A DNA stretch of 64,000 nucleotides, taken from the NCBI RefSeq assembly GCF_000265205.3, contig NC_018000.1, positions 2,046,001-2,110,000 on the forward strand. The letters run 5' to 3'. The stretch is from Sinorhizobium fredii USDA 257. Its GTDB lineage: Bacteria > Pseudomonadota > Alphaproteobacteria > Rhizobiales > Rhizobiaceae. Below the pieces are notes generated by a model. The model searched no databases, was not told where the DNA came from, and saw only the letters and a program-made list of their open reading frames with translations. Below, piece after piece: positions 9,418 through 39,206 of this stretch. How positions within the stretch are numbered: position 1 is the first letter of the stretch; each line of letters starts with the position of its first letter. A program made the translations under genes and the position numbers.

Positions 9418-9442
9418 AACGCTAAGTAACCAACGTTGTTCC
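9418..9442 (-). promoter_or_regulatory. EcfG-type promoter, BON copy 1
   Basis: On the minus strand GGAAC, 16 bases, CGTT: an exact match to the sigma-EcfG consensus, about 15-20 bp upstream of the start region of the BON-like frame. Confidence 0.65.
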
Positions 9443-9654
9443 AGGTGCCGACAATTCACACAAAGATCCGCGTACAGAGATCCGCTGCCTTAACTGACGT
9501 ATTGGGGTGGTCAGTCATCGAGGCGCGGAAGGCACAATAGGAATATGCGAATGCCACTTTCCGTGAGGATTGCGCTCATCTGCCCGTTTGCGGCGGTATG
9601 CCCGCGCTCTGTTAAGAGCGGTCGCACGCACGTAGGATGAGGGCGTCGACCTCT

Positions 9655-9866
9655 ATGGCAAGACATCGCCCAAAATGATTCTGGCGGACATCTTGCCGAT
9701 GGCAGTTCCGGGATCGATGCGGTCAAGAACATTCTTGCTCAATCTCCAGTGCCGGTGAACTTCATAAACGGCGTTTCCCGAGCGCCTGCTGACTGGTGCG
9801 AGACCGGAGCCGGCGTTCCTGGTGACGAAGCCGTTCAATGCGGGTGAAGATTCCGTTTATCGGCGT
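9655..9866 (+). pseudogene. PhyR-like receiver domain remnant
   Basis: Spread over shifted frames, the DNA encodes KMILADI, LADGSSGIDAVKNILAQSPV, then FPERLLTGARPEPAFLVTKPF. These are signature pieces of the receiver domain of PhyR, the anti-anti-sigma response regulator of the alphaproteobacterial general stress response. The N-terminal sigma-like domain is absent. Several frameshifts make it non-functional. A much shorter piece of the same sequence follows repeat copy 2. Confidence 0.6.
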
Positions 9867-9973
9867 GAGTTGGAGTCCGCCAAGCCGCCGTTCTGACATA
9901 TCACTGCGACGGCTCGAACTAATTCAACCGTTGTGAGTTTGTTGTATAGGCGCAAACTCCGGAGAAAACGCAT

Positions 9974-10180
9974 ATGGATTGGAATCGGGTCGAAGGCAAT
10001 TGGAAGCAATTCAAAGGTAAGATTAAGGAGCAGTGGGGTAAGCTCACTGACGACGATCTCGACCAAATCGCCGGTAAACGCGACCAGCTCGAAGGCAAAA
10101 TCCAAGAACGCTATGGTCTTGAGAAGGACCGCGCGAAGAGGGAGATTGACGACTGGTACAGCAAACAGGACGACTGGTAA
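9974..10180 (+). CDS. CsbD family stress protein, copy 1
   Basis: 68 residues, MDWNRVEGNWKQFKGKIKEQ…, with the repeated G-K-x-K-E-x-W/L-G-K pattern of CsbD (WGKLTDDDLDQIAGKRDQLEGK, IQERYGLEKDRA). CsbD-like proteins are small, very hydrophilic and strongly induced by general stress in many bacteria; their biochemical role is unknown. CCGGAGAAAACGCAT before the ATG supplies the ribosome site. A strong terminator follows at 10205. Upstream, CGAAC-N16-AGTT is at best a weak EcfG-like site. It is a distant paralogue of the CsbD at 38940. Confidence 0.9.
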   Translation: MDWNRVEGNWKQFKGKIKEQWGKLTDDDLDQIAGKRDQLEGKIQERYGLEKDRAKREIDDWYSKQDDW

Positions 10181-10204
10181 GGGTCCCGCTCTGGCATAAT
10201 CAAG

Positions 10205-10228
10205 ACCCCGCTGTCGGCGGGGTTTCTT
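10205..10228 (+). terminator. Rho-independent terminator of csbD copy 1
   Basis: ACCCCGC pairs with GCGGGGT around TGTCG, followed by TTTCTT, 25 bp after the csbD stop codon. Confidence 0.8.
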
Positions 10229-10338
10229 ATTCGCTCGGTTTGGGCTCTTCCACTGTTCCGTTTGTGCCTGATCGGCGCACACTGATGTTGCTCGCCATTA
10301 GTGGGTCTTGCCGAACTACTTGGTGTACAGAAACCTGC

Positions 10339-10680
10339 CTAGATGTGGAGCCTCAACAGGTTGTCGTCGGTGAGGCCTAGTCTGCTGATCGGCTTGGATT
10401 TTAAGCTGCCGTGGGGGCGATGCCAATTGTATCGGTAGAGCCAGATCGGTAGGTCGGCGGCCCGCTGCTCCGATGTTTTGTGGGCCTTGGCATAGGCCCA
10501 TTCGCGCAGAGCGGTCTGGACGACACGTTCGGCCTCGCCATTGGTCTTGGATGTGCTTGACGGCGAGCCGCCGCAGCGCCTTGGCGCAGCGATGGGAGCG
10601 CAAGCTTGTGCCATTGTCGTCATTACGCGATGGACCTTGACGCCATGGGCCGTGTGAAGCGCAAGGCATTGAAGAGAAAC
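10339..10680 (-). pseudogene. IS481 family transposase, 3' fragment
   Basis: The minus strand carries the C-terminal third of an IS481 transposase: GVKVHRVMT, a shifted DNGTSLRSH, then TNGEAERVVQTALREWAYA with the catalytic glutamate, and the family ending YNWHRPHGSLKS, PISRLGLTDDNLLRLH. At least two frameshifts and loss of the 5' two-thirds make it inactive. It abuts an IS5 fragment on the other strand. Confidence 0.8.
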
Positions 10681-10759
10681 CGGAGGCAGGAGCGCCGCGT
10701 TTCGTCGGGAAAGATTTCCGAAAGGATTGGGCGGCGGCGCTGGAGGTGTTTCGAGCCTC

Positions 10760-11022: not shown

Positions 11023-11042
11023 CCCAATTCACTGAGGTCGTT

Positions 11043-11068
11043 GGAACTTTCGATCGTTTCATGGCGTT
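11043..11068 (+). promoter_or_regulatory. EcfG-type promoter, PRC-barrel copy 1
   Basis: GGAAC, 17 bases, CGTT ends 35 bp before the PRC-barrel ATG. Exact consensus match. Confidence 0.7.
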
Positions 11069-11103: not shown

Positions 11104-11499
11104 ATGCGACGTATTCTGATTGCTCTTGCAGCTACTACGATGATTGTTGGAGCGGCTGCCGCGCAGACGGCGGAAACCACGACCACCGAAACCTTCATCG
11201 CCGCCAAGCCGACCGACGTGCTGAGCTACAATCTCGTCAATCTCAACGTCACCAACAATGCCAACGAGTCGATCGGGGAGATCAAGGATCTGGTCCTCTC
11301 GGAAGGTCAGCTGGCCGGATATATCGTGTCGGTCGGAGGTGTCCTCGGGATGGGCGAGCGCTACGTTGTTGTCAGCCCGAAGGCTGTCAAAATCACCTAC
11401 GTCGAAAACGACAAGAAATGGACGGCTGTGATGGACGCGACCAAGGATCAGCTCAAGGCGGCCCCCGAGTTCAAATACGAAGGCCGCTGGAAACGCTAA
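11104..11499 (+). CDS. Exported PRC-barrel protein, copy 1
   Basis: 131 residues. An N-terminal signal peptide ([20 protein letters not shown], cleaved near AQTAET) precedes a PRC-barrel domain: [52 protein letters not shown]. Such periplasmic PRC-barrel proteins are common stress-induced genes in rhizobia; their ligand is unknown. The ATG follows AGGGGTGGGACC. An EcfG promoter lies upstream. A nearly identical copy sits at 19142, including about 60 bp of upstream DNA, so the unit was recently duplicated within the island. Confidence 0.9.
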   Translation: MRRILIALAATTMIVGAAAAQTAETTTTETFIAAKPTDVLSYNLVNLNVTNNANESIGEIKDLVLSEGQLAGYIVSVGGVLGMGERYVVVSPKAVKITYVENDKKWTAVMDATKDQLKAAPEFKYEGRWKR

Positions 11500-12325: not shown

Positions 12326-12699
12326 CTAAACGACCGTTGAGGAGTTGGAGATCGCGGTAATCAACTGCGCTATGGCGAACGGCTTCTCAAGCACGATACT
12401 GTTTGGAACGCCCTTCGACGGCCAGTCAACCGCGCCGTGTCCACTGATGTAGACGACAGCTACCTCCGGGTCGATCTCCCGGGCAGTGCGCGCTACCTCC
12501 CAACCGTCGACGGCCCTATCCGAGAGCATGATGTCAGTGACCACACCCTTGGCTGCGCCTTCTGCGCTCCTGAGGTACTCCATGGCCTCGTTCCGCTGGA
12601 GAAGGCGATGACATTGAAGCCTGCCTCGGTCAGCGCTTCTTCAAAGTCGAAGAGTAACAGCCCTTCGTCTTCCACAAGCATAATCGTAACCGGTTCCAT
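12326..12699 (-). pseudogene. Single-domain response regulator, frameshifted
   Basis: From the ATG at 12699 frame 1 gives MEPVTIMLVEDEGLLLFDFE with the acidic pocket (EDE) and runs to FNVIAFSS. The next frame continues NEAMEYLRSAEG, VVTDIMLSDRAVDGWEVAR (phospho-acceptor Asp in VVTDI) and VVYISGH…VLEKPF with the conserved Lys. One base inserted or lost near 12600 explains the break. It lacks an output domain, like the other CheY-like proteins of this island that pair with HWE kinases. Confidence 0.75.
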
Positions 12700-13002
12700 G
12701 GCCTTCGACCGTTGCAAGCCCATCCCAATGGCGGGAAACGCAGGCGAAGAGCAACCGTTCCAATGCAACTGAGTCTCCTTTGGACGTTCAATAGGTGACC
12801 GTCAACCGCGTCGCTGTAAGTGCCGGCCGGCGAAGTCGCCACCTCGTTTCGTGTCCATGTCCATCCGACCCCTTTGGTGTCTCTTATGTCGGCGTCGTCA
12901 CCGGGACAAGTAGACGATCGATCACCACGTCGCTGCGTTCGTGAGCTTGATTGTGTCAAGGAGAACGAACTCACGTCAGCGGTATCATGCGTAGCTCAAA
13001 AT
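12700..13002. other. Gene-free stretch
   Basis: About 300 bp between the broken response regulator and the promoter at 13003. I see no gene, repeat or clear hairpin in it. Confidence 0.5.
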
Positions 13003-13027
13003 GGAACAAAACCGGGTGCCAAACGTT
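13003..13027 (+). promoter_or_regulatory. EcfG-type promoter, membrane micropeptide 1
   Basis: GGAAC, 16 bases, CGTT, 61 bp upstream of the 27-aa peptide start. Exact consensus. Confidence 0.7.
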
Positions 13028-13088: not shown

Positions 13089-13172
13089 ATGGATATTACC
13101 ACGCTTCTCATCATAGTTCTGATAGTTATTCTGCTAGGCGGCGGCTTCTACGGACGAGGACGCTGGTATTAA
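13089..13172 (+). CDS. Membrane micropeptide 1 (GGG-aromatic-GRGRWY tail), 27 aa
   Basis: The frame encodes MDITTLLIIVLIVILLGGGF followed by YGRGRWY: an almost complete transmembrane helix and a glycine/arginine/aromatic tail. It is too short for normal gene calling. Support comes from an exact EcfG promoter, a ribosome site (CTAGGAGACGTCT) 8 bases before the ATG, and two paralogues at 18426 and 37109 with the same tail. The fold is presumably a single inner-membrane helix with a charged end. I cannot name a family or function; a role in the envelope stress response is inferred from promoter and context. Confidence 0.75.
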   Translation: MDITTLLIIVLIVILLGGGFYGRGRWY

Positions 13173-13332: not shown

Positions 13333-14409
13333 TCAGATTTGCTCAGTGGGGTGCCTGCGTTCCTCGACTTCAGCGGTGGTCCACTCAAGGAACAGGCTGT
13401 AGGCGACCGCCAACAGCGTTGGCCCAAGGAATACCCCGATGAAGCCAAAGGCGACGACGCCACCAAGGAACCCGAAAAGGCCGAGCAACACGGGCAGGCT
13501 GTTGGTCTTGCCGAGGACGTAGGGTCTGAGGACGTTGTCGATGCTGCTGACGAGAAGCAGACCCCATGCTGCGACGAACAGGCCCCACCAAACGGCTCCC
13601 TGGACAAAAAACCATAGCGCCACCGCGCCCCACACAAGCGGGGGGCCTATCGCCACGAACGACAGGACAAACGTAAGGAAACCAAGCAATAGCGCCTGAG
13701 GCACACCGGCGATCCAGAAACCAATGCCGGCCAGGACGGCCTGGGCGAGGGCCGTGCCGATCAAACCGTAAATGACGCCTTTGACGGTCCCGCCGACGAC
13801 CGTGAGCAGTTTTCGAGACCGGAGGCCGGCGAACCTTTCGCCAACTTCGCGCACGTAGGCTGCAATCCGCCGACCGTGAAGGAAGAAGAAAAAGGCGATG
13901 AATACGCTCATCCCGAGTTCTAAGAGCCCGGCGCCGAGTACCGCTCCGCTGGCTACTGCCAAGTTTGTGGCGGGGCCGATCAGCTTCTTGAGCTCAATGA
14001 TGAACGCGGGCGCATTGTGGGCCAAGCTCTCCCAATAGGCAGCCACGTTTTCGCCAATGACCGGCAGTCCTGCGACCCAAAGCGGTGGCGCCGGGGGCCC
14101 CTGCTCGAGAATCTGGTTCACCGCCGTGAGCAGGTTGCTTACGCTGTCGGTCAATGACGGCACCATCACGGCGAACGGTGCGACGAGAACGAGGGCAACC
14201 AGCAACGTCATCACGGCGGCCGCCAGGCTTTTATTGCCACCGACTGCCCGCTCGCACCTCTGGTAGACCGGCCATGTTGAGAAACATATGACCGCCGCCC
14301 ACAGGATGGCTGAGAGGAAAGGCTGGAGGACGAGAGCGCAACCGAGCGCAAGTAGAAGAAGGGCGCCGACCCCGAGAATTTGTTCGATTGGCTTACCAAG
14401 GAATATCAT
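13333..14409 (-). CDS. AI-2E family transporter (YdiK/TqsA-like)
   Basis: 358 residues with about eight membrane segments in the AI-2E arrangement: paired N-terminal helices (ILGVGALLLLALGCALVLQP), a central soluble part (PVIGENVAAYWESLAHNAP), then a C-terminal block of glycine-rich helices (GTVKGVIYGLIGTALAQAVL, FVAIGPPLVWGAVALWFF, FGFIGVFLGPTLLA). The family includes exporters of AI-2 and Na+/H+ antiporters; substrate here unknown. The ATG at 14409 is preferred to TTG at 14415. A near-consensus EcfG site (TGAAC) lies about 100 bp upstream. Confidence 0.87.
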   Translation of the reverse strand: MIFLGKPIEQILGVGALLLLALGCALVLQPFLSAILWAAVICFSTWPVYQRCERAVGGNKSLAAAVMTLLVALVLVAPFAVMVPSLTDSVSNLLTAVNQILEQGPPAPPLWVAGLPVIGENVAAYWESLAHNAPAFIIELKKLIGPATNLAVASGAVLGAGLLELGMSVFIAFFFFLHGRRIAAYVREVGERFAGLRSRKLLTVVGGTVKGVIYGLIGTALAQAVLAGIGFWIAGVPQALLLGFLTFVLSFVAIGPPLVWGAVALWFFVQGAVWWGLFVAAWGLLLVSSIDNVLRPYVLGKTNSLPVLLGLFGFLGGVVAFGFIGVFLGPTLLAVAYSLFLEWTTAEVEERRHPTEQI

Positions 14410-14510
14410 GACCAATCAGTCTTGCTGCGGCCTAGCCTCTGCCCGCGCATAGTCCATACTCGGGATGGCCGTCTCCAGTTCACTCAGTCGGTAGCTTAAA
14501 ACTAAGCAAC

Positions 14511-14535: not shown

Positions 14536-14949
14536 AACGAATGAGGCTCCGCATTGCGGCACCTCGGGCCTACGCGCGGGAGTTGGCGGTGCATTGCGAC
14601 AAATTTGCTGCCACGCACCGGTTGTTTCTGCCCGACGTTCAATTGGATCCCGAATGCTGCAGGGGCGACGCACCGTCATCGGAAGCACAGCGACGCCAGC
14701 CGATCAGCTAGTACTCCAGCCATTCATGACTGATACAGACAAGCGACATGTCCACGTTGCTAGAGAAGCGGGTCTTCTCCTGCAGAAATAGAAGCTCTGC
14801 TTGTGCTAGTCCCTGGCGGACAGCACTCTCAGCCAGCCGCAAAGCTTTCGCCCTATCCTCCTAGAGCTGGACGTGACTTGCGCGCGGCTGCGTCACGTCG
14901 GAGACTTTGCCTGTCTGCCCATGTCCCGTTGCTGGAAAGAAGAAATCTC
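14536..14949. other. Gene-free stretch before the CorA gene
   Basis: About 410 bp with no frame that resembles a known protein and no EcfG-like site on the plus strand. The promoter of the CorA gene must lie here but I cannot place it. Confidence 0.45.
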
Positions 14950-15915
14950 ATGCCTGTAGTCGCCTCGTTCATATACCGAGACGGAAAGCGCGCCGAAGAA
15001 CTGCCGCTCTCCCCCATGCCGATTTCCTTCAAAGAGGGTGAATTCGCATGGATCGGCTTGCATGCGCCGACGGCCGAGGAGATGGCGGCCCTTCAAGAGG
15101 CCTTCGGGCTTCATCAGCTTGCCGTCGAGGATGCGCTCAATTCGCAGCAGATAGCAAAGGTGGACATTTACGGCGAACAGTTGTTCGTGGTCGCCAAAAC
15201 CGCGCACCTCGAAGGCGACAAGATCCTCTACGGCGAGACGTCGCTGTTTGTCGGGCGGCACCATATCATCTCTGTCCGGCAGGGCTCTGCACGTGCGCAT
15301 ACGGAGCTTCGCTCGCAACTGGAGGCCTCTCCCCAATTGTTGCAGAGGGGGCCGGACTACGTGCTGCATGCGATCATCGATTTCATCGTCGATGGCTATC
15401 TCCCGGTCGTTCAGACGATCGAGGACAAAGTGCTGGCGATGGAAAAGCACATGCTGGTGGCGTTTCTCGGGCGCGAGGAGATCCGCCGAATTTTCCGTCT
15501 GCGCCGACAGGTCATCCTGTTCCAACGGATTCTTGGTCCGATGTCGGAGGTCGTCGGCAAACTGGTGCACCTAGATTTGCCGTGCATTGATGAGCACGCA
15601 AGACCTTATTTCCGCGATGTGCACGACCACGTCAGGCGCGTTGACGCTATGGTCAGCGGTCTGCGTGAGGTCATCACCTCGGTTTTTGAGGCCAGCAACC
15701 TGCTGGAGCAGCAGCGGCAGGGGACAATCACCAGACAATTGGCAGCCTGGGCTGCCATCCTCGCCGTTCCGACGGCAATCGCAGGAATCTACGGGATGAA
15801 CTTCCGAAACATGCCGGAATTGGACACGCGGTACGGTTATTTCGCGGTGCTTGCAACGATCGCTGCGCTTTGCTCTTTCCTCTTCTACCGGTTCAAAAAA
15901 GCTGGCTGGATCTGA
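14950..15915 (+). CDS. CorA family divalent metal transporter (ZntB/CorA-like)
   Basis: 321 residues. A large cytoplasmic funnel (residues 1-255, with EFAWIGLHAPTAEEMAALQE and the long stalk helix around DYVLHAIIDFIVDGYLPVVQ) leads to two C-terminal membrane helices. The first ends in the selectivity signature YGMNFRNMPEL (GMN). The ending FLFYRFKKAGWI is typical of bacterial CorA. The ATG at 14950 was chosen because family members start MPVVASFIY-like; the longer frame from 14803 adds an unlikely Arg/Ala-rich leader. It would move Mg2+, Zn2+ or Co2+ across the inner membrane. Confidence 0.9.
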   Translation: MPVVASFIYRDGKRAEELPLSPMPISFKEGEFAWIGLHAPTAEEMAALQEAFGLHQLAVEDALNSQQIAKVDIYGEQLFVVAKTAHLEGDKILYGETSLFVGRHHIISVRQGSARAHTELRSQLEASPQLLQRGPDYVLHAIIDFIVDGYLPVVQTIEDKVLAMEKHMLVAFLGREEIRRIFRLRRQVILFQRILGPMSEVVGKLVHLDLPCIDEHARPYFRDVHDHVRRVDAMVSGLREVITSVFEASNLLEQQRQGTITRQLAAWAAILAVPTAIAGIYGMNFRNMPELDTRYGYFAVLATIAALCSFLFYRFKKAGWI

Positions 15916-16134: not shown

Positions 16135-16395
16135 CTAGTGGTTTATGCCGCCGACCCTCATAATTACGCGCCCCGGACCGGCAATGTCCTGGGCAATTCG
16201 GTGGATCAGCGCGGCGTAGCTACGCTTAACCACATTGCCTTCAATTACAATGCTGTCGCCCAAAACACGGTACGATAAATTCGTCACGGCGAATGGCAGT
16301 TCCGATGCGATCGCGCAACGGACAGATGCAATGAGAGACGCCGAATCGGAACCTTGGCAATTCTGCCGGCTTGGATCATGTGTGACCAGGACCAT
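16135..16395 (-). CDS. BON-domain-like small protein, copy 2 (intact)
   Basis: 86 residues from an ATG at 16395 with AGGGAGG 6 bases upstream. The sequence MVLVTHDPSRQNCQ… leads to SLIASVRCAIASELPFAVTN and DSIVIEGNVVKRS, then RIAQDIAGPGRVIMRVGGIN. The pattern of an alpha-beta-beta-alpha unit with V-x-I-x-G and a final R-V-I-x-R-V strand suggests a single BON domain without a signal peptide. This is a pattern-based guess with modest certainty. An exact EcfG promoter lies 30 bp upstream. The copy at 9129 differs at about 15 residues and lost its start codon. Confidence 0.55.
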   Translation of the reverse strand: MVLVTHDPSRQNCQGSDSASLIASVRCAIASELPFAVTNLSYRVLGDSIVIEGNVVKRSYAALIHRIAQDIAGPGRVIMRVGGINH

Positions 16396-16424: not shown

Positions 16425-16449
16425 AACGCTAAGTAACCAACGTTGTTCC
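16425..16449 (-). promoter_or_regulatory. EcfG-type promoter, BON copy 2
   Basis: On the minus strand GGAAC, 16 bases, CGTT, 30 bp upstream of the BON-like ATG. The same site is kept in copy 1. Confidence 0.7.
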
Positions 16450-16839: not shown

Positions 16840-17205
16840 TCAGCGAGACAGTAGACGTGTAAGGACCTCGACCAGTTCCTTTTCCGTGAAGGGCTTCTTC
16901 AGAACGGGATGATCGCGGTAACCATCTCTCATATCGTGACCGCTATATCCCGTTGAGAAAACGAACGGAACGCCGTGAGTGCCGAGCGCTTCAGCGACGG
17001 CATAGCTGTTACTGCCATTCAGATTCATATCCAGCATAGCAACATCAAAGATTTGCGCATCAATCGCCGCGAGGGCCTGATTGACCGTAGCTGCAGCAGT
17101 CACGGACTCGCATCCGAGGTCGGCCAGCATGTCTTCTATCATTATGAGGACCAGCATTTCATCCTCGACAACGAGGACGTGAAGACCGGTAAGCAATTTA
17201 TCCAT
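16840..17205 (-). CDS. Single-domain response regulator (CheY-like)
   Basis: 121 residues forming one receiver domain and nothing else: acidic pair in VVEDEM (14-16), phospho-acceptor Asp59 in VAMLDMNLNG, a Ser/Thr switch in VFSTGYSG and Lys in VLKKPFTEKEL. The ATG at 17205 shares one base with the stop of the upstream kinase (TGATG), so the pair is co-translated. Such stand-alone receivers next to HWE kinases often act as phosphate sinks or relays feeding PhyR in the general stress response; this role is inferred. Confidence 0.88.
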   Translation of the reverse strand: MDKLLTGLHVLVVEDEMLVLIMIEDMLADLGCESVTAAATVNQALAAIDAQIFDVAMLDMNLNGSNSYAVAEALGTHGVPFVFSTGYSGHDMRDGYRDHPVLKKPFTEKELVEVLTRLLSR

Positions 17206-18251
17206 CACGAGCCTTGCGGTGCAGGGAAATTGATTGTGCAAATCAGGCCGTCCGCCCGATAGTCGAGGTTCACCGTGCCTTCCAGTTCGTGAGGCAGACC
17301 GCGCTCGAGCACCCGCGACCCGAACCCTTTCCGGGACGGTGGCGTCACAGGCGGGCCATTTTTCTCCTGCCAGCGCAGGAGAAGCCTGTTGCCCTCGGAC
17401 GACGGCTCAATCATCCATGAGATCAGGACTGACCCGGCCGTGTTGGAAAACGCGCCGTACTTCACGGCATTGGTCGCGAGTTCGTGGAACGCGATGCCGA
17501 GCGCAAGGGTGACTTTCGGGGAGACGCGGATGTTGCTGCCCGTGATAACAAAGTGCTCTGACCTTCCATTTGCAACACCGAACGGCTCCAAAGCCGCCTT
17601 GATCAGATCGAACAGTCCCGCACCTTCCCAATTCTCGCGGGTCAACAGGTCGTGCGACCTGGAAAGGGCAAAGAGGCGCGACTCGATGGATTCCCGGATC
17701 ACGTTGGGATCAGAAGTATTCCGCAAAGCCTGCCAGACAATCGACTGCACCGTGGCAAGGGTGTTTTTCACGCGATGGTTCAACTCGTCGATGAGCATCC
17801 TGGACTGGGCTTCCTCCTGCTTGTGATCGGTGAGATCCACGAAGGAGGCGAAATGCTGGACTATCTCGCCGCTCTTGTCCCGAACCGGACTGATGAGGAT
17901 CGCTGACCAGAACTCGCTGCCATCCTTGCGACGGTAGCAAATCTCCGAACCGCCTTTGGTGGTGCCCGCAAACGCGGCATTAATGCGCGCCTGCGCCTCG
18001 GGATCGGTGCCCCGCGCCATCAGGAAGTCCAGCCTCTGGCCAAGCACCTCTTCCCGGTCATATCCGGATAGATCGAGAAAAGCGTCATTGACAAAAATTA
18101 TCGGATCGCCGCGCTCCTTTGCGTCCGTAAACAGCATCGGCATTCGTGTCGATTCAGCAGCGACGACGAATGGCCCAAGGTCCCTCCGAAAGCTCTCGAC
18201 TTCGGCCTCAGCAACTTTCTGGCCCTCGGACTTGATTATTATTTCAGGCAT
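17205..18251 (-). CDS. PAS/LOV-like HWE histidine kinase
   Basis: 348 residues. A PAS domain (about 30-145) has the LOV layout (PIIFVNDAFLDLSGYDREEV, then DGSEFWSAILISPVRDKSG). In place of the photoactive motif GxNCRFLQ it reads GQRLDFLM, with Leu74 where Cys would be, so it cannot form the flavin-cysteinyl adduct. The HWE kinase core follows: H-box ELNHRVKNTL with His159, N-box FHELATNAVKYGA and the WQE motif. No membrane segment is visible, so it is cytosolic. It is co-translated with the receiver at 16840. In related bacteria such kinases feed the general stress response. Confidence 0.88.
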   Translation of the reverse strand: MPEIIIKSEGQKVAEAEVESFRRDLGPFVVAAESTRMPMLFTDAKERGDPIIFVNDAFLDLSGYDREEVLGQRLDFLMARGTDPEAQARINAAFAGTTKGGSEICYRRKDGSEFWSAILISPVRDKSGEIVQHFASFVDLTDHKQEEAQSRMLIDELNHRVKNTLATVQSIVWQALRNTSDPNVIRESIESRLFALSRSHDLLTRENWEGAGLFDLIKAALEPFGVANGRSEHFVITGSNIRVSPKVTLALGIAFHELATNAVKYGAFSNTAGSVLISWMIEPSSEGNRLLLRWQEKNGPPVTPPSRKGFGSRVLERGLPHELEGTVNLDYRADGLICTINFPAPQGS

Positions 18252-18425: not shown

Positions 18426-18509
18426 TCAGTACCAGCGACCGCGGCCGAACCAGCCGCCCCCCAACAGAACAAGGATCAACAATATTATGAGAAGCGTGGT
18501 GACATCCAT
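18426..18509 (-). CDS. Membrane micropeptide 2 (GGGWFGRGRWY tail), 27 aa
   Basis: MDVTTLLIILLILVLLGGGW then FGRGRWY: a paralogue of the peptides at 13089 and 37109. The ATG at 18509 follows AAGGAGACTCGC, an excellent ribosome site, and an exact EcfG promoter lies 85 bp upstream. It is transcribed leftward toward the kinase-receiver operon but ends 175 bp before it. One transmembrane helix with a basic-aromatic tail is all it encodes. Function unknown. Confidence 0.75.
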   Translation of the reverse strand: MDVTTLLIILLILVLLGGGWFGRGRWY

Positions 18510-18593: not shown

Positions 18594-18618
18594 AACGTTC
18601 TTCACGCTTTCTTGTTCC
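18594..18618 (-). promoter_or_regulatory. EcfG-type promoter, membrane micropeptide 2
   Basis: On the minus strand GGAAC, 16 bases, CGTT. Exact consensus, upstream of the 27-aa peptide. Confidence 0.7.
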
Positions 18619-19082: not shown

Positions 19083-19108
19083 TTAACTTCCGATCAAATC
19101 CTGGCGTT
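19083..19108 (+). promoter_or_regulatory. Degenerate EcfG-like promoter, PRC-barrel copy 2
   Basis: TTAAC, 17 bases, CGTT at the position where copy 1 has GGAAC-N17-CGTT. The two leading G of the -35 box are lost, so this duplicate may respond less to stress. Confidence 0.4.
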
Positions 19109-19141: not shown

Positions 19142-19537
19142 ATGCAACGTATTCTGATTGCCCTTGCAGCTACGACGATGATTGTTGGAACGGCTGCGGC
19201 GCAGACGGCTGAAACCACCACCACCGAAACCTTCGTCACCGCCAAGCCGACCGACGTGCTGAGCTACAATCTCGTCAATCTCAACGTGACCAATACTGCC
19301 AATGAATCGATCGGGGAGATCAAAGATCTGGTCCTCTCGGAAGGTCAGCTGGCTGGCTATATCGTGTCCGTCGGAGGGGTCCTCGGGATGGGCGAGCGCT
19401 ACGTTGTCGTCAGCCCGAAGGCGGTCAAAATCACCTACGTCGAAACCGACAAAAAGTGGACGGCTGTGATGGATGCGACCAAGGATCAGCTCAAGGCGGC
19501 CCCGGAGTTCAAATACGAGGGCCGCTGGAAACGCTAG
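19142..19537 (+). CDS. Exported PRC-barrel protein, copy 2
   Basis: 131 residues, differing from the protein at 11104 at only about seven positions (for example Q2 for R2, T-for-I in FVTAKP, NTANES, VETDKK). The signal peptide and PRC-barrel strands are unchanged, so selection on the protein has continued since duplication. Upstream similarity starts about 60 bp before the ATG (GGGTTCCTGAAC). Here the EcfG -35 box is altered. No DUF883 gene follows this copy. Confidence 0.9.
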
Positions 19538-24679: not shown

Positions 24680-24704
24680 AACGGGCCACTGTATGCCTTG
24701 TTCC
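24680..24704 (-). promoter_or_regulatory. EcfG-type promoter, YihY copy 2
   Basis: On the minus strand GGAAC, 16 bases, CGTT, 91 bp upstream of the YihY start. Exact consensus. Confidence 0.7.
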
Positions 24705-25141: not shown

Positions 25142-25322
25142 TCGACGGCGGGACGACGGGTTATCTTTGGCGTCTCTCAGAGCGACGGCGGTTCGCTCTA
25201 CGGGCGATAATGAAGACGGCCTGCCAACTCTGACGCGTGAACTCGCTGCTGATTTGTCGCACTTTTCGAATTTACCCTTCAAATTCAAGGATTTCGGTAG
25301 TGAAACCTTATGCTACCCGTAA

Positions 25323-27810: not shown

Positions 27811-27986
27811 TTCTCTCCTTGGGTACGGGGATTAGGAGCATGGCTTCCTCCTGGTCACATGTATGAGCAACCGCTAAGGAGCAACCTTGTTCCAGCCGTC
27901 GACGCCCACGCTGAGGGGTGCTTGGCTCGCCAAGATCGGCGAGCGCATATCTAAATTGCGGCCAAGCTCCTCCAAAGAAAAAACAC

Positions 27987-28312: not shown

Positions 28313-28371
28313 AGTAAGCGGAGTCGATGTGTGTTCGGCTGTCGCAGGAACAACCGAATGGGAGAATGAAG

Positions 28372-30658: not shown

Positions 30659-32326
30659 GTTGCCTCATTCATTTTGCTCCCGGGTTGGGGCGAAGGAGGC
30701 CGGGCGCGGAGATGGCAGGGGTTTCGCAGCGCCTGGCCTCCTTCGCGAGCGCCACGGCACCTCAGTGCGGCCTTGCGATTTGGTGGATCGGCGGCTCCTT
30801 GTTCAAGGTGCCAAACAGCAACGCGTCCGCCTGTTCGCTACGCCAGACCTTCAGCCGGCGCTGAAGTGTTCGAAGCAGCTTGTCGGGGTAATCGCCGGGA
30901 TACTCGGCCTGCAGACGTGACAGAAGTTCACTGCCGGTTCGCCATGGTTCGGCTTCGAACCAACTTCGCAAGTCGGCGGTCGCCTTGACGAGAGGGTCAG
31001 GACGCCGCCGTCCTCTTTTGGCCTTTACAATCGGACGATCCGTCGGCCGGGTAGCTCCGTCCTTCCAGGCCGTCCGCAAACTCGCGAGGAAAAGGTCGAT
31101 CGGCTGAGCTACCCCGTCAGTGCGCATGGCCGGCGGCGTGTCGGCAAGCGCAGCGAGTCGCTCCTGTAGGGCGCGAATATCGCGCAATAGCAGGACAGGA
31201 TCGAGCCCTGCGTAGATTTCCTGCAGACGGGAGCGGACTGCATCTGACGTGCGAGCGTCGGCAATCAGACGCTGATGCGGCGTGGCTGGCGGACTATACG
31301 TCTTGCGCACACGAGCGCCGTCGCGCTGCTTCGCGATCAATTTGAATGATGGCTGAAAGAAGTTTACGAACAGCCGTGCTGATCGGTAGAGCTTCGCTAG
31401 CAGCGTGGCGGCCTCCAGTCCCTCGAACCGACGATATCCAACCATCCTGCGCACGACGGCGCCATTCTTCTGCTCGACAAAGGCCTGGTCGTTCTTGCGG
31501 TAGGGGCGGCAGCGCGTGAAGACAATGTTGGCGGCGTCACAATAGGCCTTCAACGTCTCGTTCATGAAGACGGTGTCGTTGTCCGTATCCAGGCCGAGAA
31601 GCGCGAAGGGCAGTTGCTTGCGCAATTCTGTGAGCACACTGCTCAACAGTGTCTGTTCGCGAACCAGCAGCGGCGCACATTCCGTCCAGCCAGTCGCGAT
31701 GTCGGTGAGAACAAGGGTTTGGATGAAGCTGCCGCGAGCCGAAGGGCCGCAATGGGCGACGAGATCCGCCTCAACGAAGCCTGGCGCCGGATTGTCCCAA
31801 TCCGCCGACGTTCTAATGGGAATGCTCCGTCGCAGGGCGTGCGCCGCGGGCCGCCGTCGAGGGCGTCCCAAACCCTCTCGGATCGGTCCCAGCGTCCTGT
31901 CGATCGTGGCCGCGCTCATCGCCAGCAATTTGCCGCGGATCTCAGGCGCGAGGTTAAAATGACCGTGCCGTTCCATCGCCTCGACAAGGACGGGTAGCAA
32001 CGCCTTCAGCCGCTTCCCACAAACCCGATCAGACGCCTCCCACAGCAATATGAGCGCATTGCGTTCCGCTTCATCATAAACCCGCGGCCGCGCTCGCCGA
32101 CCTGTAGGCTCTCTCCCGTGGCGCCGCAGCAGGCGCATCGCGTGCTTGCGGTGAAAGCCCGTGATGACGACGAACTCATCCAGAATTCTCGCCTTCTCCG
32201 TTCGCGTCGAAGCACGATAACGCTCCGAAACCGCCGCCGTCAGTTCTTTCCTCGTCGCCATGCTCAGCTGTCCCATAGTCGCCCCTGTTCATACCCCTCG
32301 GTAGGGAGCAAATTATGTGAGGCAAC
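30659..32326 (-). mobile_element. Integrase-type insertion sequence (ISNCY-like), apparently complete
   Basis: A single long transposase lies between imperfect 23-bp inverted ends (30659-30681 and 32304-32326, GTTGCCTCA…TTTGCTCCC, 19 of 23 matching). The element is 1668 bp. No target duplication is obvious. Its right end is 43 bp from a truncated NUDIX gene, which it may have cut. Confidence 0.75.
30762..32276 (-). CDS. Integrase-core (DDE) transposase
   Basis: 504 residues. The N-terminal part holds helix-turn-helix motifs (ARILDEFVVITGFHRKHAMR, then LLRRHGREP). The rve/DDE core has the first Asp in FVEADLVAHCG, the second in LLGLDTDNDTVF and the Glu in KNDQAFVEQKNGAVVRRMVG. The C-terminal third (LRSWFEAEPWRTGSELLSRL) is typical of the long ISNCY/IS1202-like transposases of rhizobia. 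The frame is intact, so the element may be active. Confidence 0.85.
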   Translation of the reverse strand: MGQLSMATRKELTAAVSERYRASTRTEKARILDEFVVITGFHRKHAMRLLRRHGREPTGRRARPRVYDEAERNALILLWEASDRVCGKRLKALLPVLVEAMERHGHFNLAPEIRGKLLAMSAATIDRTLGPIREGLGRPRRRPAAHALRRSIPIRTSADWDNPAPGFVEADLVAHCGPSARGSFIQTLVLTDIATGWTECAPLLVREQTLLSSVLTELRKQLPFALLGLDTDNDTVFMNETLKAYCDAANIVFTRCRPYRKNDQAFVEQKNGAVVRRMVGYRRFEGLEAATLLAKLYRSARLFVNFFQPSFKLIAKQRDGARVRKTYSPPATPHQRLIADARTSDAVRSRLQEIYAGLDPVLLLRDIRALQERLAALADTPPAMRTDGVAQPIDLFLASLRTAWKDGATRPTDRPIVKAKRGRRRPDPLVKATADLRSWFEAEPWRTGSELLSRLQAEYPGDYPDKLLRTLQRRLKVWRSEQADALLFGTLNKEPPIHQIARPH

Positions 32327-34127: not shown

Positions 34128-34484
34128 TCAGGATCGGACCACTTGCTCAAGTACTGCGAGCAGGCGCCGCTCCTCAGTTGGCTTGGCGACATTGGGCGCG
34201 CTTGCCATGATCTCTCCGCCGATAAGTTCCGGTTTGCTGTAAGCGCTTGCCACGACGAAGGGTACGTTCTGCGCGCGCAGCGCCTCCGCCAGCAGTGTGA
34301 CGCTCCCGTCCCGTAAGGTCACATCAAGGAGTGCCACGCTAGGTAGCTCGTCGCCCAACAGACTAAGCGCCTCCTGCACCGTTGTTACCGACCCGAGCAC
34401 CTGCCAGCCGCGCCGCTCAAGCAGCAGCTTGAGATCGATCGCGATCAGGAACTCGTCCTCCACGATAAGCACGGTCTTGCGCAT
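34128..34484 (-). CDS. Single-domain response regulator
   Basis: 118 residues: acidic pair in LIVEDEFLI, Asp54 in SVALLDVTLRDGS, switch Ser in VVASAYSKPE and Lys in NVAKPTEERR. There is no output domain. It follows the HWE kinase by 15 bp, with which it forms an operon ending at the terminator at 33871. Like the receiver at 16840, it is likely the direct target of its kinase. Confidence 0.87.
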   Translation of the reverse strand: MRKTVLIVEDEFLIAIDLKLLLERRGWQVLGSVTTVQEALSLLGDELPSVALLDVTLRDGSVTLLAEALRAQNVPFVVASAYSKPELIGGEIMASAPNVAKPTEERRLLAVLEQVVRS

Positions 34485-34499: not shown

Positions 34500-35498
34500 T
34501 CATGAGACCGATCCTAACGGGGCGACGATCTCGACTCTCAAACCCGCCGGTGCATAGTTCAGTTCCACCCGTCCGCCCAATTCGCGGCTGACAGCGAACT
34601 CGATGAGCTGCGTGCCGAACCCGGAAGAGGCCGGCGGCGTAACCGAGGGGCCGCCGCTCTCCTGCCAGACCAGCCGTAGATGTGGCGCGCTCGCTTCCGC
34701 GACCTCCCAGCGGACGCAAACTTGTCCGGTGGGGATCGAAAGCGCTCCATATTTAATCGCATTGGTCGCGAGTTCGTGCAGGATCAGGCTCAGCGACATG
34801 ATTTGCTTCGACGCGAGCGGTACGGGCGGGCCGGATTCGACATGAACCCCTGTCGGACCTTCTGAATAGGGCGCAAGCGTTCGTTCGAGCACCTCCTGAA
34901 GGTCAGCGTCGCCCTCTTGCGAGTAAGCCGCTTCGTGGGCCTGCACGAGCGCATTGAACCGGTCGAGGAAAGCGTCGCGGTATTCCTCGCCGGAGCGGCC
35001 CGCCGCTGTCGTCTGGCGGGCTATTGCCTGGACCAAGCCGAGCAGGTTCTTCATGCGATGCCGCAGTTCGCCTAGGATCACATCCTTTTCGGCCTCATGC
35101 TGGCGTCGCTCCGTCGCGTCCACGATCGAGAGCAGCAAGGTGCGGCTGTTGTTGTCGGGATGGAACAGCCGGTGCGCACTTACGAGCATCGTCCGCCGAC
35201 CGATGTCCGGAAATTCGTGCTCTACCTCATAATCCACCACCGCCGTGCTCTTCGGGATCACCTCATCCAGAAGGCGGCGCAGCTCAGGGACGTCCCATTG
35301 CCGGTCGCCGAGATCATAGATGTGCTGCCCGATTGTCTCGTCTCGGTCGACTCTGAAAGTAGTAAGGAAGGACCGACTGGCGGACCGGACGCACAGGTTC
35401 TGGTCAAGGACAAGCAGCGGGTCCGGGAGTGTGTCGATTATGCCTTGCGCCTCGACATGGCCGTTCCGCAACAGGCGATAGAGATCTTCCAGATTCAT
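34500..35498 (-). CDS. PAS-HWE sensor histidine kinase
   Basis: 332 residues. The PAS domain (about 15-130; IIDTLPDPLLVLDQNLCVRS, then RLFHPDNNSRTLLLSIVDAT) precedes an HWE kinase core: GELRHRMKNLLGLVQAIARQ with His147, the N-box LHELATNAIKYGAL, and WQE in LRLVWQESGGPSV, with the final FGTQLIEFAVSRELGG. No membrane helix is visible. Family members sense blood-light-type or redox cues through PAS; the ligand here is unknown. It is the first gene of an operon with the receiver at 34128. Confidence 0.88.
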   Translation of the reverse strand: MNLEDLYRLLRNGHVEAQGIIDTLPDPLLVLDQNLCVRSASRSFLTTFRVDRDETIGQHIYDLGDRQWDVPELRRLLDEVIPKSTAVVDYEVEHEFPDIGRRTMLVSAHRLFHPDNNSRTLLLSIVDATERRQHEAEKDVILGELRHRMKNLLGLVQAIARQTTAAGRSGEEYRDAFLDRFNALVQAHEAAYSQEGDADLQEVLERTLAPYSEGPTGVHVESGPPVPLASKQIMSLSLILHELATNAIKYGALSIPTGQVCVRWEVAEASAPHLRLVWQESGGPSVTPPASSGFGTQLIEFAVSRELGGRVELNYAPAGLRVEIVAPLGSVS

Positions 35499-35952: not shown

Positions 35953-35977
35953 GGAACTAATCGCCGGCCGAGGGGTT
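35953..35977 (+). promoter_or_regulatory. Near-consensus EcfG promoter, PepSY-like/YflT unit
   Basis: GGAAC, 16 bases, GGTT: one mismatch in the -10 box. It ends 43 bp before the ATG at 36021. Confidence 0.45.
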
Positions 35978-36020: not shown

Positions 36021-36335
36021 ATGAAAAATATGATTCTTGTTGCGGCAGCGCTGATGAGCGCTGTGGCCACGGCGTCGCTTGCGCAGACGACACCTTCCGC
36101 AGAAGGAAACACGCCTGCCGTCGCAACGCCGGACTCGCAAAACCCAACGGCCCCGGTTGAAGGCGCGAACAGCTTCACTGAAGCGCAAGCGAAGGAACGG
36201 ATCGAAAAAGCCGGATACACCGGCGTCGCCGGACTGAAGCTCGATGACAAAGGTGTGTGGCAGGCAACTGCAATGAAGGACGGAAAAACAGTTTCCGTCG
36301 CTCTCGACTACCAGGGCAACGTAACTGCGCAATAG
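36021..36335 (+). CDS. Small exported PepSY-like protein
   Basis: 104 residues. A signal peptide (MKNMILVAAALMSAVATASL, cleaved after AQT) leads to a Pro/Thr-rich linker and a compact C-terminal domain: SFTEAQAKERIEKAGYTGVA, GLKLDDKGVWQATAMKDGKT, VSVALDYQGNVTAQ. This resembles periplasmic PepSY-like domains, which often inhibit or buffer in the envelope. GGAAGAGG precedes the ATG. It probably shares the EcfG-like promoter with the next gene 36 bp downstream. Confidence 0.8.
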   Translation: MKNMILVAAALMSAVATASLAQTTPSAEGNTPAVATPDSQNPTAPVEGANSFTEAQAKERIEKAGYTGVAGLKLDDKGVWQATAMKDGKTVSVALDYQGNVTAQ

Positions 36336-36371
36336 ACGGCCAAACGTCCGCAAGCAAAAGGGAGAATGAAT

Positions 36372-36977
36372 ATGAGAACCGTGACAGGTCTCTTCGACGA
36401 TTATGGAGATGCACTCGACGCAGTAAGCGATTTGGAAGCGGCAGGTGTGCCTTCCGATGACATCAGCATAGTCGCAAACAACACAGGCGACCGGTACTCG
36501 ACCGACAGCTCAGACGCGGGCGAAGGTGCCGCCACCGGAGCTGGCCTCGGAGCTGCCGGCGGCGGCGTGGTCGGCCTTCTGACGGGGCTCGGCCTAATGG
36601 CAATCCCCGGAGTCGGACCTGTCGTGGCCGCCGGATGGCTTGCGGCCACTGCCGCCGGTGCGGCAGCAGGTGCGGTGGCCGGCGGCGCGGCCGGAGGTTT
36701 GATCGGCGCTCTGACGGACTCCGGGGTCGATGAAGAGGATGCCCATGTTTACGCCGAGGGCGTTCGCCGCGGAGGCACTTTGGTGACGGCAAGGGTTGAT
36801 GACAGCCTGGCACTCAAAGCCGAAGGAATCCTGCAGCAACGCGACCGCGTCGATCCTGCCGCCCGCAGAAGCATTTATGCTCAAGAAGGGTGGTCGCGGT
36901 TTGACGAAAGTGCGGACCCATACACGCTCGATCAGATTGAACGCGAGCGCGAGCGTTACCGCGCTATGATGCCATAG
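36372..36977 (+). CDS. General stress protein of the YflT/GSP17M type
   Basis: 201 residues from the ATG at 36372 (GGGAGA seven bases upstream; the ATG at 36366 is too close). The N-terminus MRTVTGLFDDYGDALDAVSD, LEAAGVPSDDISIVANN is the ferredoxin-like YflT domain. A long Gly/Ala stretch (GAATGAGLGAAGGGVVGLLT … AAGAAAGAVAGGAAGGLIGA) can span or enter the membrane. Then a second half, SGVDEEDAHVYAEGVRRGGT, completes the fold. Homologues are induced by heat, osmotic and starvation stress. Confidence 0.85.
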   Translation: MRTVTGLFDDYGDALDAVSDLEAAGVPSDDISIVANNTGDRYSTDSSDAGEGAATGAGLGAAGGGVVGLLTGLGLMAIPGVGPVVAAGWLAATAAGAAAGAVAGGAAGGLIGALTDSGVDEEDAHVYAEGVRRGGTLVTARVDDSLALKAEGILQQRDRVDPAARRSIYAQEGWSRFDESADPYTLDQIERERERYRAMMP

Positions 36978-37108
36978 TGGCATCGACTAATCGGTGACGG
37001 CGCCGATGGGCGCCTTCACCAATGTCTCACCGGAAACTCCATGCAACCAAACGCCCTGCGGAACGTTGCCGTTAGTCCGAGTACAGTCAAGAACCACCGT
37101 GCAGAGCG

Positions 37109-37222
37109 ATGGAGACGACGGGTACTGCAGGGGCCCAGAGGGATATCATCACGCTTTTGATTATTGTTCTTATCATTCTCCTCCTAGGTGGCGGTTGGTA
37201 CGGCCAAGGACGCTGGTACTAG
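37109..37222 (+). CDS. Membrane micropeptide 3 (GGGWYGQGRWY tail), altered start
   Basis: The frame reads METTGTAGAQRDIITLLIIV then LIILLLGGGWYGQGRWY. The last 26 residues match the peptides at 13089 and 18426, but where those begin ATG-GAT this copy has AGG-GAT (37142), so the original start codon is lost. An upstream in-frame ATG at 37109 could give a 37-residue form, with only a weak ribosome site (GCAGAGCG). No EcfG consensus was found upstream. This copy may be decaying or may have changed its N-terminus. Confidence 0.55.
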   Translation: METTGTAGAQRDIITLLIIVLIILLLGGGWYGQGRWY

Positions 37223-37284
37223 GCAGCCCCAGAGACCGAAAATCTCGTCGTCCCCGGGGTACTCGGCTTCCTCGAGGAAATCGC

Positions 37285-38406
37285 TTACTCGAAAAGAGAA
37301 CGGCCGATGGTTGCCCGCCTCAGCGCCAGAAACCGCCTCGTGTCGACAAAGATATCGTGTGCTTCCGCCGCATCGTCCAGAAGCTTTTCCTTGTCGGCCG
37401 CACTGAAGAGGTCCTCCGCACCCGTCATATTCGTAAGATCGAGCTTCGACAGCAAATCGGGAGCGGTCGCAAGATCGTTCAAGCTACCGAGTTGATCCTG
37501 GAGTCCCTCCATCGCCGTGATGAACTTTTTGTGGCGTTGGGTTTCCGCCTTGCTGTGATAAAGAGAGCCGAAAAACTCCGCCGCATAGCGCAGTTTCTTT
37601 GCGGAAATGCGCAGTTCATGACGGCTCTCGTCATCGAGATCGATCAGATTGTTGCCTCCCTTCGCCACTTTCTTCCAGAGCCTGTCCAGTACGTTGGAGG
37701 CGAAATTCCTTGCTGGCTCAACGAGCAACGCCTCGCCCATCTCGTTGCTCCGCCAGTTCTTGATGGAAATCCATTTGGCGAGGTCGATCATCAACGAGCG
37801 GGCGCGCACGGAAGAAAAGGCGGCATCAACCGCCCCATAGGGATCGTTGCGCGCCGCTTGAAGGCGGCTTGAAAAGCCTTCATCCGATGCGCGTTTGATG
37901 ATAACGTCAATGTTGCGCGCATCGCCGAGTTCCGAGGCGAGCCAGCGCAACTCGTCGCGCATGTGGTCGAAGCGGCTGTCGGCAAACAGCGACTTGCAGA
38001 TCGAGAAAAGCGAGCGCAGTCGCCGCAGCGATACACGGGCCTGATGCAAGGCGTCGGCATTGCGAGACCAGGACAAGGCCATTTCGTTGAGACGAAACTG
38101 CTTGAGACATGCTGCGGCTAAGTGAGCGAAAGCCGTGGCTGCATTCATGTCGGCTGTCAAGGGAATGGCGCTCGCTTTGATGGCACCGGGTGCGGGGCCA
38201 AGCAGACGATAGCCGCGCTCCGCTTTGCTCAGCACGCCGATATGCGCGGGGGTGATCAGATTGACCTTTTGGGCCAACACAAACAGCGCCGTCGGCGAGC
38301 CGTTCTTGCTTTCCAGTTCGATTTCGCACAGGGGTGCCTGGCGATCCGCTGCAACGACTTTTCCAAGATTCAAAGCAACTTCGACCGTGGCGTCGCCTTC
38401 CGTCAC
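37285..38406 (-). CDS. CYTH-CHAD protein, 5'-truncated
   Basis: 373 residues. The start (MTEGDATVEVALNLGKVVAA, DRQAPLCEIELESKNG) is the second half of a CYTH (triphosphate tunnel) domain. From about 100 on comes a CHAD domain with its conserved histidines and basic helices (ALHQARVSLRRLRSLFSICK, DESRHELRISAKKLRYAAEF). Codons further upstream still match CYTH (ILDDPEIKPLLAGTGDNLAP, then IFEVHVKRHRWS) to about 38530, where stops appear. The gene thus lost its first 100 or so codons. CYTH-CHAD proteins act on or bind inorganic polyphosphate. The CHAD part may still be made. Confidence 0.78.
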   Translation of the reverse strand: MTEGDATVEVALNLGKVVAADRQAPLCEIELESKNGSPTALFVLAQKVNLITPAHIGVLSKAERGYRLLGPAPGAIKASAIPLTADMNAATAFAHLAAACLKQFRLNEMALSWSRNADALHQARVSLRRLRSLFSICKSLFADSRFDHMRDELRWLASELGDARNIDVIIKRASDEGFSSRLQAARNDPYGAVDAAFSSVRARSLMIDLAKWISIKNWRSNEMGEALLVEPARNFASNVLDRLWKKVAKGGNNLIDLDDESRHELRISAKKLRYAAEFFGSLYHSKAETQRHKKFITAMEGLQDQLGSLNDLATAPDLLSKLDLTNMTGAEDLFSAADKEKLLDDAAEAHDIFVDTRRFLALRRATIGRSLFE

Positions 38407-38530
38407 GCTCCAACGATGCCTCTTGACATGAACCTCAAAGATGGGCGCGAGGTTATCGCCAGTCCCTGCAAGCAGAGGCTTGATCTCGGGATCATCGAGG
38501 ATTGGGACGGTTCTAATTCTACTCGGCGGC

Positions 38531-38886
38531 GGGCGCCTTTATGTGGACAACGGGTTTGACATTGGCCGGCTGTCGGCCAGGCCTATGAGCCGGCTTCGAA
38601 CTATGTCGATCCCTCGCCACGAGCGTGCTGGCGATCATTGTCGTAATTTACATCTATCGGGTGGCCACATTTTTAAAGGAGCCAGGTCCAAAGCTCCCGA
38701 AGGCGAGACGCTGGCCGCTGTTGGCTCTACTATGATGCTGGTCCGCGCGCGTTGCGCGCCGCTCCGGGAAAAAGCCAGTCGATTTCCGCAGTTACGCATG
38801 AGCGATCGTCGAAATGGATGGGATGTCTGAAAAGGTCGCACTCATAAAAGCGTCGGCCCCTCTCTGCTAAAAGGGCGCCAAGAGAA
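38531..38886. other. Stretch upstream of the broken CYTH-CHAD gene
   Basis: About 350 bp with no intact gene. It is probably the scrambled 5' end of the CYTH-CHAD gene followed by unrelated DNA. Confidence 0.4.
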
Positions 38887-38916
38887 AACCTGTTCCGGCA
38901 GGCGCAGGAACAGGTT
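38887..38916 (-). terminator. Terminator of csbD copy 2
   Basis: AACCTGTTCC and GGAACAGGTT form 10-bp arms around a 10-base loop. On the minus strand TTTTCTCTT follows. It lies 24 bp after the csbD stop. Confidence 0.7.
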
Positions 38917-38939
38917 GCACCAACCGCAGCTTCAATGCT

Positions 38940-39131
38940 TTAAGTCTTGTCGACAGCGTCTTTAACTGCGCCCTTTAGCTTTCCCTTGGCTTGCTGGGCA
39001 CCGCCCTTTGCCTCTTGCGCCGCGCCCTTGGCGCGGAGCGAGTTGTTGTCGGTTGCATCGCCTGCGGCCTGCTTGGCCTTGCCAACGAGCTCATTGGCCT
39101 TGCCGGCCACTTTGTCCTTTGCACTGCCCAT
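38940..39131 (-). CDS. CsbD family stress protein, copy 2
   Basis: 63 residues from the ATG at 39131 (GGGAGA ten bases upstream). [20 protein letters not shown] and [20 protein letters not shown], then [15 protein letters not shown] show the Lys/Ala/Gly repeats of the alphaproteobacterial CsbD branch, quite unlike the CsbD at 9974. It has a clean promoter-gene-terminator layout: exact EcfG site at 39182, terminator at 38887. It is a standard general stress gene of unknown biochemical role. Confidence 0.9.
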
Positions 39132-39181
39132 GCGGGGTCTCCCGATTTGGAGGACGCGACTTGCGCCCCCACAGGCGCTCG

Positions 39182-39206
39182 AACGAGCGGCTCGGCGCTT
39201 TGTTCC
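39182..39206 (-). promoter_or_regulatory. EcfG-type promoter, csbD copy 2
   Basis: On the minus strand GGAAC, 16 bases, CGTT, 51 bp upstream of the csbD ATG. Exact consensus. Confidence 0.72.

Follow-up and report, generated by a model that had tools for sequence, protein, structure and literature searches.

Promoter motifs of the island

The window analysed here is a 64-kb stretch of the 7.03-Mb genome of Sinorhizobium fredii USDA 257 (C1:2046001-2110000; site positions are given as window coordinates). Between 8 and 41 kb it contains accessory DNA in which copies of the EcfG-type promoter motif GGAAC-N16/17-CGTT precede genes for PRC-barrel, BON-like, CsbD and BrkB proteins and for a membrane microprotein of only 27 residues. 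The gene content is of the EcfG-regulon type, and we consider it quite probable that this is an accessory general-stress island, assembled from at least two cassettes like those carried by rhizobial plasmids and relying on the stress-response core of its host. The sites that can be assigned to a gene are the following.

9418..9442, minus strand: EcfG-type promoter, BON-like copy 1; exact motif, copy of 16425
11043..11068, plus strand: EcfG-type promoter, PRC gene 1; exact in 8 of 11 PRC loci
12737..12761, minus strand: EcfG-type promoter, receiver gene; kept in L058, L064, L065 and G017 with few spacer changes
13003..13027, plus strand: EcfG-type promoter, microprotein 1; exact motif, kept in relatives
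16425..16449, minus strand: EcfG-type promoter, BON-like copy 2; exact motif at 6 of the 7 named loci that have this gene
18594..18618, minus strand: EcfG-type promoter, microprotein 2; exact motif, kept in relatives
19083..19108, plus strand: decayed promoter, PRC gene 2; two mismatches
24680..24704, minus strand: EcfG-type promoter, BrkB 2; exact in 8 of 31 BrkB loci, GGTT form in 5
27869..27893, minus strand: site of the GGTT variant, followed by a short remnant that looks BON-like by eye
35953..35977, plus strand: EcfG-type promoter (GGTT), PepSY/YflT pair; 3 of 6 homologous loci keep the boxes, with altered spacers
37043..37067, plus strand: decayed promoter, microprotein 3; reads GCAAC
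39182..39206, minus strand: EcfG-type promoter, CsbD gene; identical in three close homologues

There are ten exact matches to the motif in the window, all confined to its 8-41 kb section (9418-, 11043+, 12737-, 13003+, 16425-, 18594-, 24680-, 24816+, 33930- and 39182-). An earlier note on this DNA had listed seven of them (9418, 11043, 13003, 16425, 18594, 24680, 39182) and placed nearly all of its sites 30-105 bp upstream of genes; all seven are real and, in agreement with that range, end 28-90 bp before the downstream start (ATC at 9418), but three exact sites had been overlooked (12737, 24816, 33930), as had the near-sites at 27869 (minus strand, GGTT) and 37043 (plus strand, GCAAC).

Could so many matches arise by chance in DNA of this kind? 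We find this hardly credible, even though two observations speak for it: the 8-41 kb section is lower in GC (58.2%, versus 61-64% in five other stretches) and gene-poor, and across the whole genome the short pattern is barely more frequent than its reversed control (166 versus 156), so that outside the window it is mostly chance and a lone match carries little weight. Against it, shuffles of the window gave a mean of 1.16 matches and a maximum of 4, with ten or more in 0 of 100, and the genome mean rate predicts 1.51 matches (Poisson P(>=10) = 4e-6), which upholds the earlier statement that the density exceeds chance. The excess is also tied to one spacing, for within 8-41 kb there are nine matches with N16 and one with N17, whereas 20 other spacers (N8-N29) yield 0-2 each. 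Finally, as described below, relatives keep the boxes while the spacers change, and such conservation was found for nine sites.

The stricter form GGAACA-N15/16-CGTT separates better from its control, occurring 53 times in the genome versus 24 for the reversed pattern, and the window holds seven of the 53, within 29.8 kb. When the 52 such sites of C1 were placed at random in 20,000 rounds, seven never fell within 29.8 kb. Forty of the 52 are intergenic according to a simple gene caller, and the genes following several of them read as PRC, BON, CsbD and nepR (by eye except where Pfam was run); two more genes that follow such a motif, at C1:1756116 and C1:1760743 (L020), presumably encode Ku. 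Across 33 genomes of the genus the GGAACA form is found 1205 times versus 735 for the reversed pattern, with the present genome the highest (53 versus a median of 37). An equal density of motifs in unrelated regions, the outcome named beforehand as contradicting an island, was thus not seen in the shuffles, the genome counts or the random placements. The GGTT form is weakly enriched in the window (three at N16/17 versus a mean of 1.0 at other spacers).

A second cluster of the stricter form lies at C1:3183309-3201034 (L013, L014), where four GGAACA-N15/16-CGTT sites in 18 kb precede a PRC-type gene and other small genes.

Conservation of individual sites

We took as the mark of a working promoter that both boxes are kept while the spacer between them drifts among relatives. 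By this measure nine sites are supported, eight exact and one of the GGTT form, and because 9418/16425 and 13003/18594 are mutual copies these make seven gene families: 9418/16425, 11043, 12737, 13003/18594, 24680, 39182 and 35953 (GGTT). For most families the boxes recur in relatives with altered spacers. The loci compared for PRC gene 1 include four fetched of 50 plasmid records; outside the eight exact loci, two Microvirga read GGAAC-N16-CATT (by eye) and one is without either box. In S. meliloti 1021 the PRC and BON-like promoters are conserved near 290 kb of pSymA. The BON-like site is missing in pSmeSM11b, is present also in G030 and shows few spacer changes, and the gene following 12737, truncated in the window, is annotated as a receiver in pSmeSM11b. 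Upstream of the CsbD gene, exact motifs with differing spacers are found in L094, L096 and L097 (L099 being a second match within the L097 CsbD gene), the GGTT form in L095 and neither in L093. For the PepSY/YflT pair, GGAAC and GGTT are kept in L120, L177 and L178 and not in L121, L122 or L176. Two of the eight exact BrkB loci are paralogues within the present genome.

In two BrkB loci (L030, L162) the promoters have nearly the same spacer, yet one ends in CGTT and its counterpart in GGTT, which suggests that both -10 forms work. That CGTT and GGTT replace each other in the -10 box of the BrkB, CsbD and PepSY promoters would broaden predictions of the regulon.

Three sites (19083, 27869, 37043) look like decayed copies, and 14511, 24816, 27987 and 33930, which found no support, are likely chance matches. 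As a promoter of the AI-2E gene, 14511 was conserved in register in 0 of 7 orthologues examined, with L132 and two additional partial L065 alignments skipped; L123 has a separate one-mismatch match elsewhere upstream of its AI-2E gene. Among the plasmid matches listed for 24816, 27987 and 33930 (10 of 34, 12 of 316 and 10 of 60 records), none reaches the site. The four mismatched sites proposed earlier have therefore fared unequally, with 35953 kept in 3 of 6 loci but 19083 decayed, 14511 unconserved and 27987 unsupported. What had been called at least eleven EcfG-like promoters comes to nine supported sites in seven families, the overlooked 12737 among them, and three decayed ones.

A microprotein of 27 residues

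A gene that recurs behind these sites encodes a microprotein with one hydrophobic span and the C-terminal sequence GGGxxGRGRWY.

13089..13172, plus strand: microprotein 1, 27 aa, 3' of 13003
18426..18509, minus strand: microprotein 2, 27 aa, 3' of 18594
37142..37222, plus strand: microprotein 3, a third copy in which the conserved ATG is absent

Among 60 genomes we found 13 further loci (E < 1e-5), in 12 of 32 other genomes of the genus, and among 297 genomes of the order there are matches in ten more at E <= 0.001, all but one of which have E < 1e-7. Weak matches had been dropped before counting, four loci with E 0.2-0.7 from the first set and four with E between 4e-5 and 7e-4 from the second. 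An exact motif lies within 220 nt upstream at 16 of the 22 loci outside the present genome (12 of the 13 within the genus and 4 of the 9 in other genera), compared with a background, taken elsewhere in the same loci, of 0.015 per 220 nt; related loci are not independent, but their spacers differ widely. At the only genus locus that fails, the boxes stand 13 nt apart (by eye). The gene is also plasmid-borne, and there too preceded by the motif, in S. meliloti SM11, S. fredii CCBAU 83666 and Phyllobacterium.

A dN/dS of 0.12, pooled over 14 distinct 27-aa genes, and a purine-rich stretch at the ribosome-binding position in 23 of 24 genes (by a lenient test) make it likely that the microprotein is under purifying selection as a protein. 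It has no match at cut-off in Pfam or NCBIfam, and being conserved and probably under selection it has the attributes of a new family. With the small single-span membrane proteins TatA and Ecr it has in common a short hydrophobic helix, and matches to them are weak and below cut-off (E 0.009-0.08); it differs from both in its 27 residues, its GGGxxGRGRWY end and its EcfG-type promoters. The positive end probably stays cytoplasmic. In three loci (L127, L133, L145) the microprotein gene lies beside a YflT gene without its cassette partners, so that it appears to be an output unit in its own right. In literature coverage that excluded most subscription papers and supplements, GRGRWY was met solely in an unrelated peptide paper, and none of the reports listed for EcfG together with small proteins or microproteins describes this one.

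Kinases, receivers and the host core

Genes that might feed signals into a stress response lie among the promoters.

9621..9839, plus strand: phyR scrap with in-frame stops; matched by tblastn to residues 169-242 of the two PhyRs that the genome encodes (E 1e-19 and 1e-16)
16840..17241, minus strand: single-domain receiver, PFVFSTGY (PF00072)
17205..18251, minus strand: PAS-HWE histidine kinase (PF07536, E 9e-26)
22465..23262, minus strand: broken PAS-HisKA_2 kinase (PF07568), C-terminal part in another frame
34128..34484, minus strand: second single-domain receiver (PF00072)
34500..35498, minus strand: second intact PAS-HWE kinase (PF07536)

The three HWE/HisKA_2 kinase loci reported earlier are all present, but that at 22465-23262 is broken; the phyR debris is as had been described. 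Sensing by a LOV domain was considered for the 17205-18251 kinase and rejected, as the LOV cysteine motif is missing, although LOV-kinase models do match below cut-off.

The nearest solved chains to the 16840-17241 receiver are 2lpm, which we take to be Sma0114, and SdrG 5ieb. At the position of the FATGUY motif this receiver, like L123 and L136, reads PFVFSTGY, and L066 reads PFVFSTGN. In the accessible text of PMC5964349 the motif is given as PFXFATG(G/Y), and among the relatives of this receiver MrrA and SdrG have a part in the stress pathway whereas Sma0114 is known for catabolite repression. The window receiver resembles these FATGUY receivers, which are found with HWE kinases, in lying next to such a kinase; its role in the stress response is putative.

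The core itself is encoded elsewhere. NepR genes lie at 5.07 Mb, beside an extracytoplasmic function (ECF) sigma factor, PhyR and HWE kinase (Pfam), and at 434 kb, beside another PhyR, so the genome possesses an intact EcfG-NepR-PhyR core outside the island. None of the NepR matches in the genome lies in the window, and phyR is present there only as the broken piece; hence it would be the host EcfG that reads the island promoters once PhyR is phosphorylated.

With the second nepR and phyR pair, at C1:434-435 kb (L015), there are two GGAACA sites (434860, 435321), and a gene for a 54-aa membrane protein follows the one at 435321.

Cassettes, plasmids and duplication

Sequence comparison shows the island to be a mosaic in which at least two cassettes are joined. 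These cassettes recur on rhizobial plasmids and in the genomes of relatives, and they bear HWE kinase/receiver pairs and EcfG-type outputs. The first, as seen in S. glycinis, comprises a kinase-receiver pair, CorA, BON-like, CsbD, PRC, receiver, microprotein and AI-2E genes; the second (G028, Phyllobacterium plasmid) comprises microprotein, PAS-HWE kinase, receiver and AI-2E genes, and in G242 a kinase and receiver are likewise near the microprotein. A segment of pSmeSM11b and plasmids of S. fredii carry BON-like, CsbD, PRC, receiver, microprotein and AI-2E genes in an order similar to that of the window, and the Phyllobacterium plasmid has the four genes of the second cassette in common with it; the window differs from all of these in combining two cassette types and in having additional stress genes. 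Conjugative plasmids of S. meliloti and S. fredii are among those with island pieces. Together with the lower GC noted above and the mobile genes ArdC and IS66 TnpB, these plasmid homologues mark the region as a probable mobile genomic island. On its left, backbone similarity to G021 ends near 3252 with accessory DNA beyond (in 1 of 10 relatives), and in three relatives no right edge was found.

Is the cluster, then, mainly a by-product of duplication, with a few EcfG targets copied by mobile elements and the motif count reflecting copy number? Copying has clearly taken place. Three paralogous promoter pairs are present (9418/16425, 13003/18594, 11043/19083), and the segment 8912..14415 recurs 1.29 Mb away at C1:3346555-3352063 with 99.6% identity over 5510 aligned bases. 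We nevertheless think this explanation unlikely, because seven distinct gene families are left once the copies are collapsed, and at least five GGAACA sites fell within 29.8 kb in only 0.5% of the random placements. The earlier view that a general-stress module has been gathered here on mobile DNA and in part duplicated is thus borne out by the motif density, the EcfG-regulon-type genes, the recurring boxes and the plasmid pieces.

How the island may work

In the accessory general-stress island that we propose, stress would lead to phosphorylated PhyR, which would take NepR off EcfG (RpoE2); host RNA polymerase with EcfG would then read the GGAAC-N16/17-CGTT (or GGTT) promoters of the island and so switch on the PRC-barrel, BON-like, CsbD, BrkB and PepSY/YflT proteins and the 27-residue microprotein, with stress protection as the presumed effect. 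The two intact pairs of HWE kinase and single-domain receiver could provide extra inputs to the host core by signalling to PhyR. The output half of this scheme draws on the conserved motifs and on promoters of like form mapped for S. meliloti RpoE2, which according to the accessible text of PMC6180224 were located by RACE or RNA-seq and include one before a PRC-barrel gene. The mapped targets of that regulon include PRC-barrel and kinase proteins and small unknown ones, some of them on megaplasmids (PMC6180224); here, by comparison, seven target families lie within 30 kb of accessory DNA, together with kinase and receiver genes and the microprotein, which the accessible text of that paper does not name. 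The input half remains a proposal, given the stress-pathway roles of MrrA and SdrG on the one hand and the catabolite repression known for Sma0114 on the other.

Several observations weigh against this interpretation. Neither the exact nor the GGTT form is present at 18 of the 31 BrkB loci, and the exact motif is absent at 6 of the 22 microprotein loci. The spacers of the BON-like and 12737 sites have changed little, so that their conservation says less. In the window receiver S takes the place of the A of the published FATGUY motif, and its nearest solved relative, assuming that it is Sma0114, belongs to a catabolite-repression protein. Another sigma factor could also share the sites, since in S. 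meliloti RpoE6 activates part of the RpoE2 set (PMC6180224). That such a factor is the main reader, for example one of group ECF26 (S. meliloti promoters GGAAT...CGT), we regard as quite improbable: in the accessible text of PMC6180224 the targets of S. meliloti RpoE6 do overlap the RpoE2 regulon by 27 genes, but 21 of the 27 are expressed lower from RpoE6, and the island boxes share their GGAAC with most RpoE2-only entries in Table 1 of that paper. We infer that the island promoters, including those of the microprotein, depend on EcfG.

If host EcfG does read the island, the cassettes might extend the stress response at both of its ends without bringing a sigma factor, the kinase and FATGUY-like receiver acting on PhyR and the EcfG-type promoters driving the cargo. 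In this more tentative suggestion, possible though we would not expect it, the microprotein is a recurrent output whose target could be the envelope, or which could exert feedback on the kinase encoded next to it. Most of the parts described here are of known kinds, and what is new is their arrangement on mobile cassettes and the microprotein family. The arrangement suggests that a master stress regulon can grow through acquired DNA already bearing promoters matched to the sigma factor of the host, and the comparison also yields a concrete gene family, that of a 27-residue membrane protein preceded at most loci by an exact EcfG motif.

Other genes and minor features

The remaining genes of the island are listed here with their Pfam matches.

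9129..9389, minus strand: BON-like gene copy 1, 86% identical to copy 2 over residues 2-86; the conserved start codon is lost and reads ATC
9974..10180, plus strand: CsbD-type gene, homologue annotated CsbD in pSmeSM11b; no exact motif upstream in the window motif list
11104..11499, plus strand: PRC-barrel protein 1 (PF05239, E 7e-10), N-terminus signal-like by eye
12326..12583, minus strand: truncated receiver-domain gene (PF00072 below cut-off), stops upstream
13333..14415, minus strand: AI-2E family transporter (PF01594)
14803..15915, plus strand: CorA-type transporter (PF01544)
16135..16395, minus strand: BON-like protein copy 2, weak BON match below cut-off
19142..19537, plus strand: PRC-barrel protein 2 (PF05239)
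20723..21718, minus strand: BrkB-family membrane protein 1 (PF03631)
23600..24589, minus strand: BrkB-family membrane protein 2 (PF03631, E 1e-66)
25285..25614, minus strand: IS66 TnpB gene (PF05717), mobile DNA
28327..28866, plus strand: YciE/DUF892 ferritin-like gene (PF05974)
30762..32276, minus strand: transposase-like gene, matching rve and the transposases of IS21 and IS481 below cut-off
36021..36335, plus strand: PepSY-domain protein (PF13670 at cut-off), N-terminus signal-like by eye
36366..36977, plus strand: YflT-domain stress protein (PF11181)
37285..38406, minus strand: CHAD/CYTH protein (PF05235)
38940..39131, minus strand: CsbD-family protein (PF05532)

No Rfam family was found in the window, and a tRNA-Ala call at 60848 overlaps a predicted gene. 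Three repeated elements were also seen. At 3337-3396, where backbone similarity ends, lies a 60-bp element with many copies in the genomes of relatives. The stretch 5782-7679, accessory DNA with a DUF736 gene, contains direct repeats that measure 89 and 47 nt, lie about 1.67 kb from each other and are 94% alike. A 200-bp stretch at 16563-16760 has 80-94% matches at three other places in its own genome and an 88% match on pSmeSM11b, and is perhaps the debris of an element.

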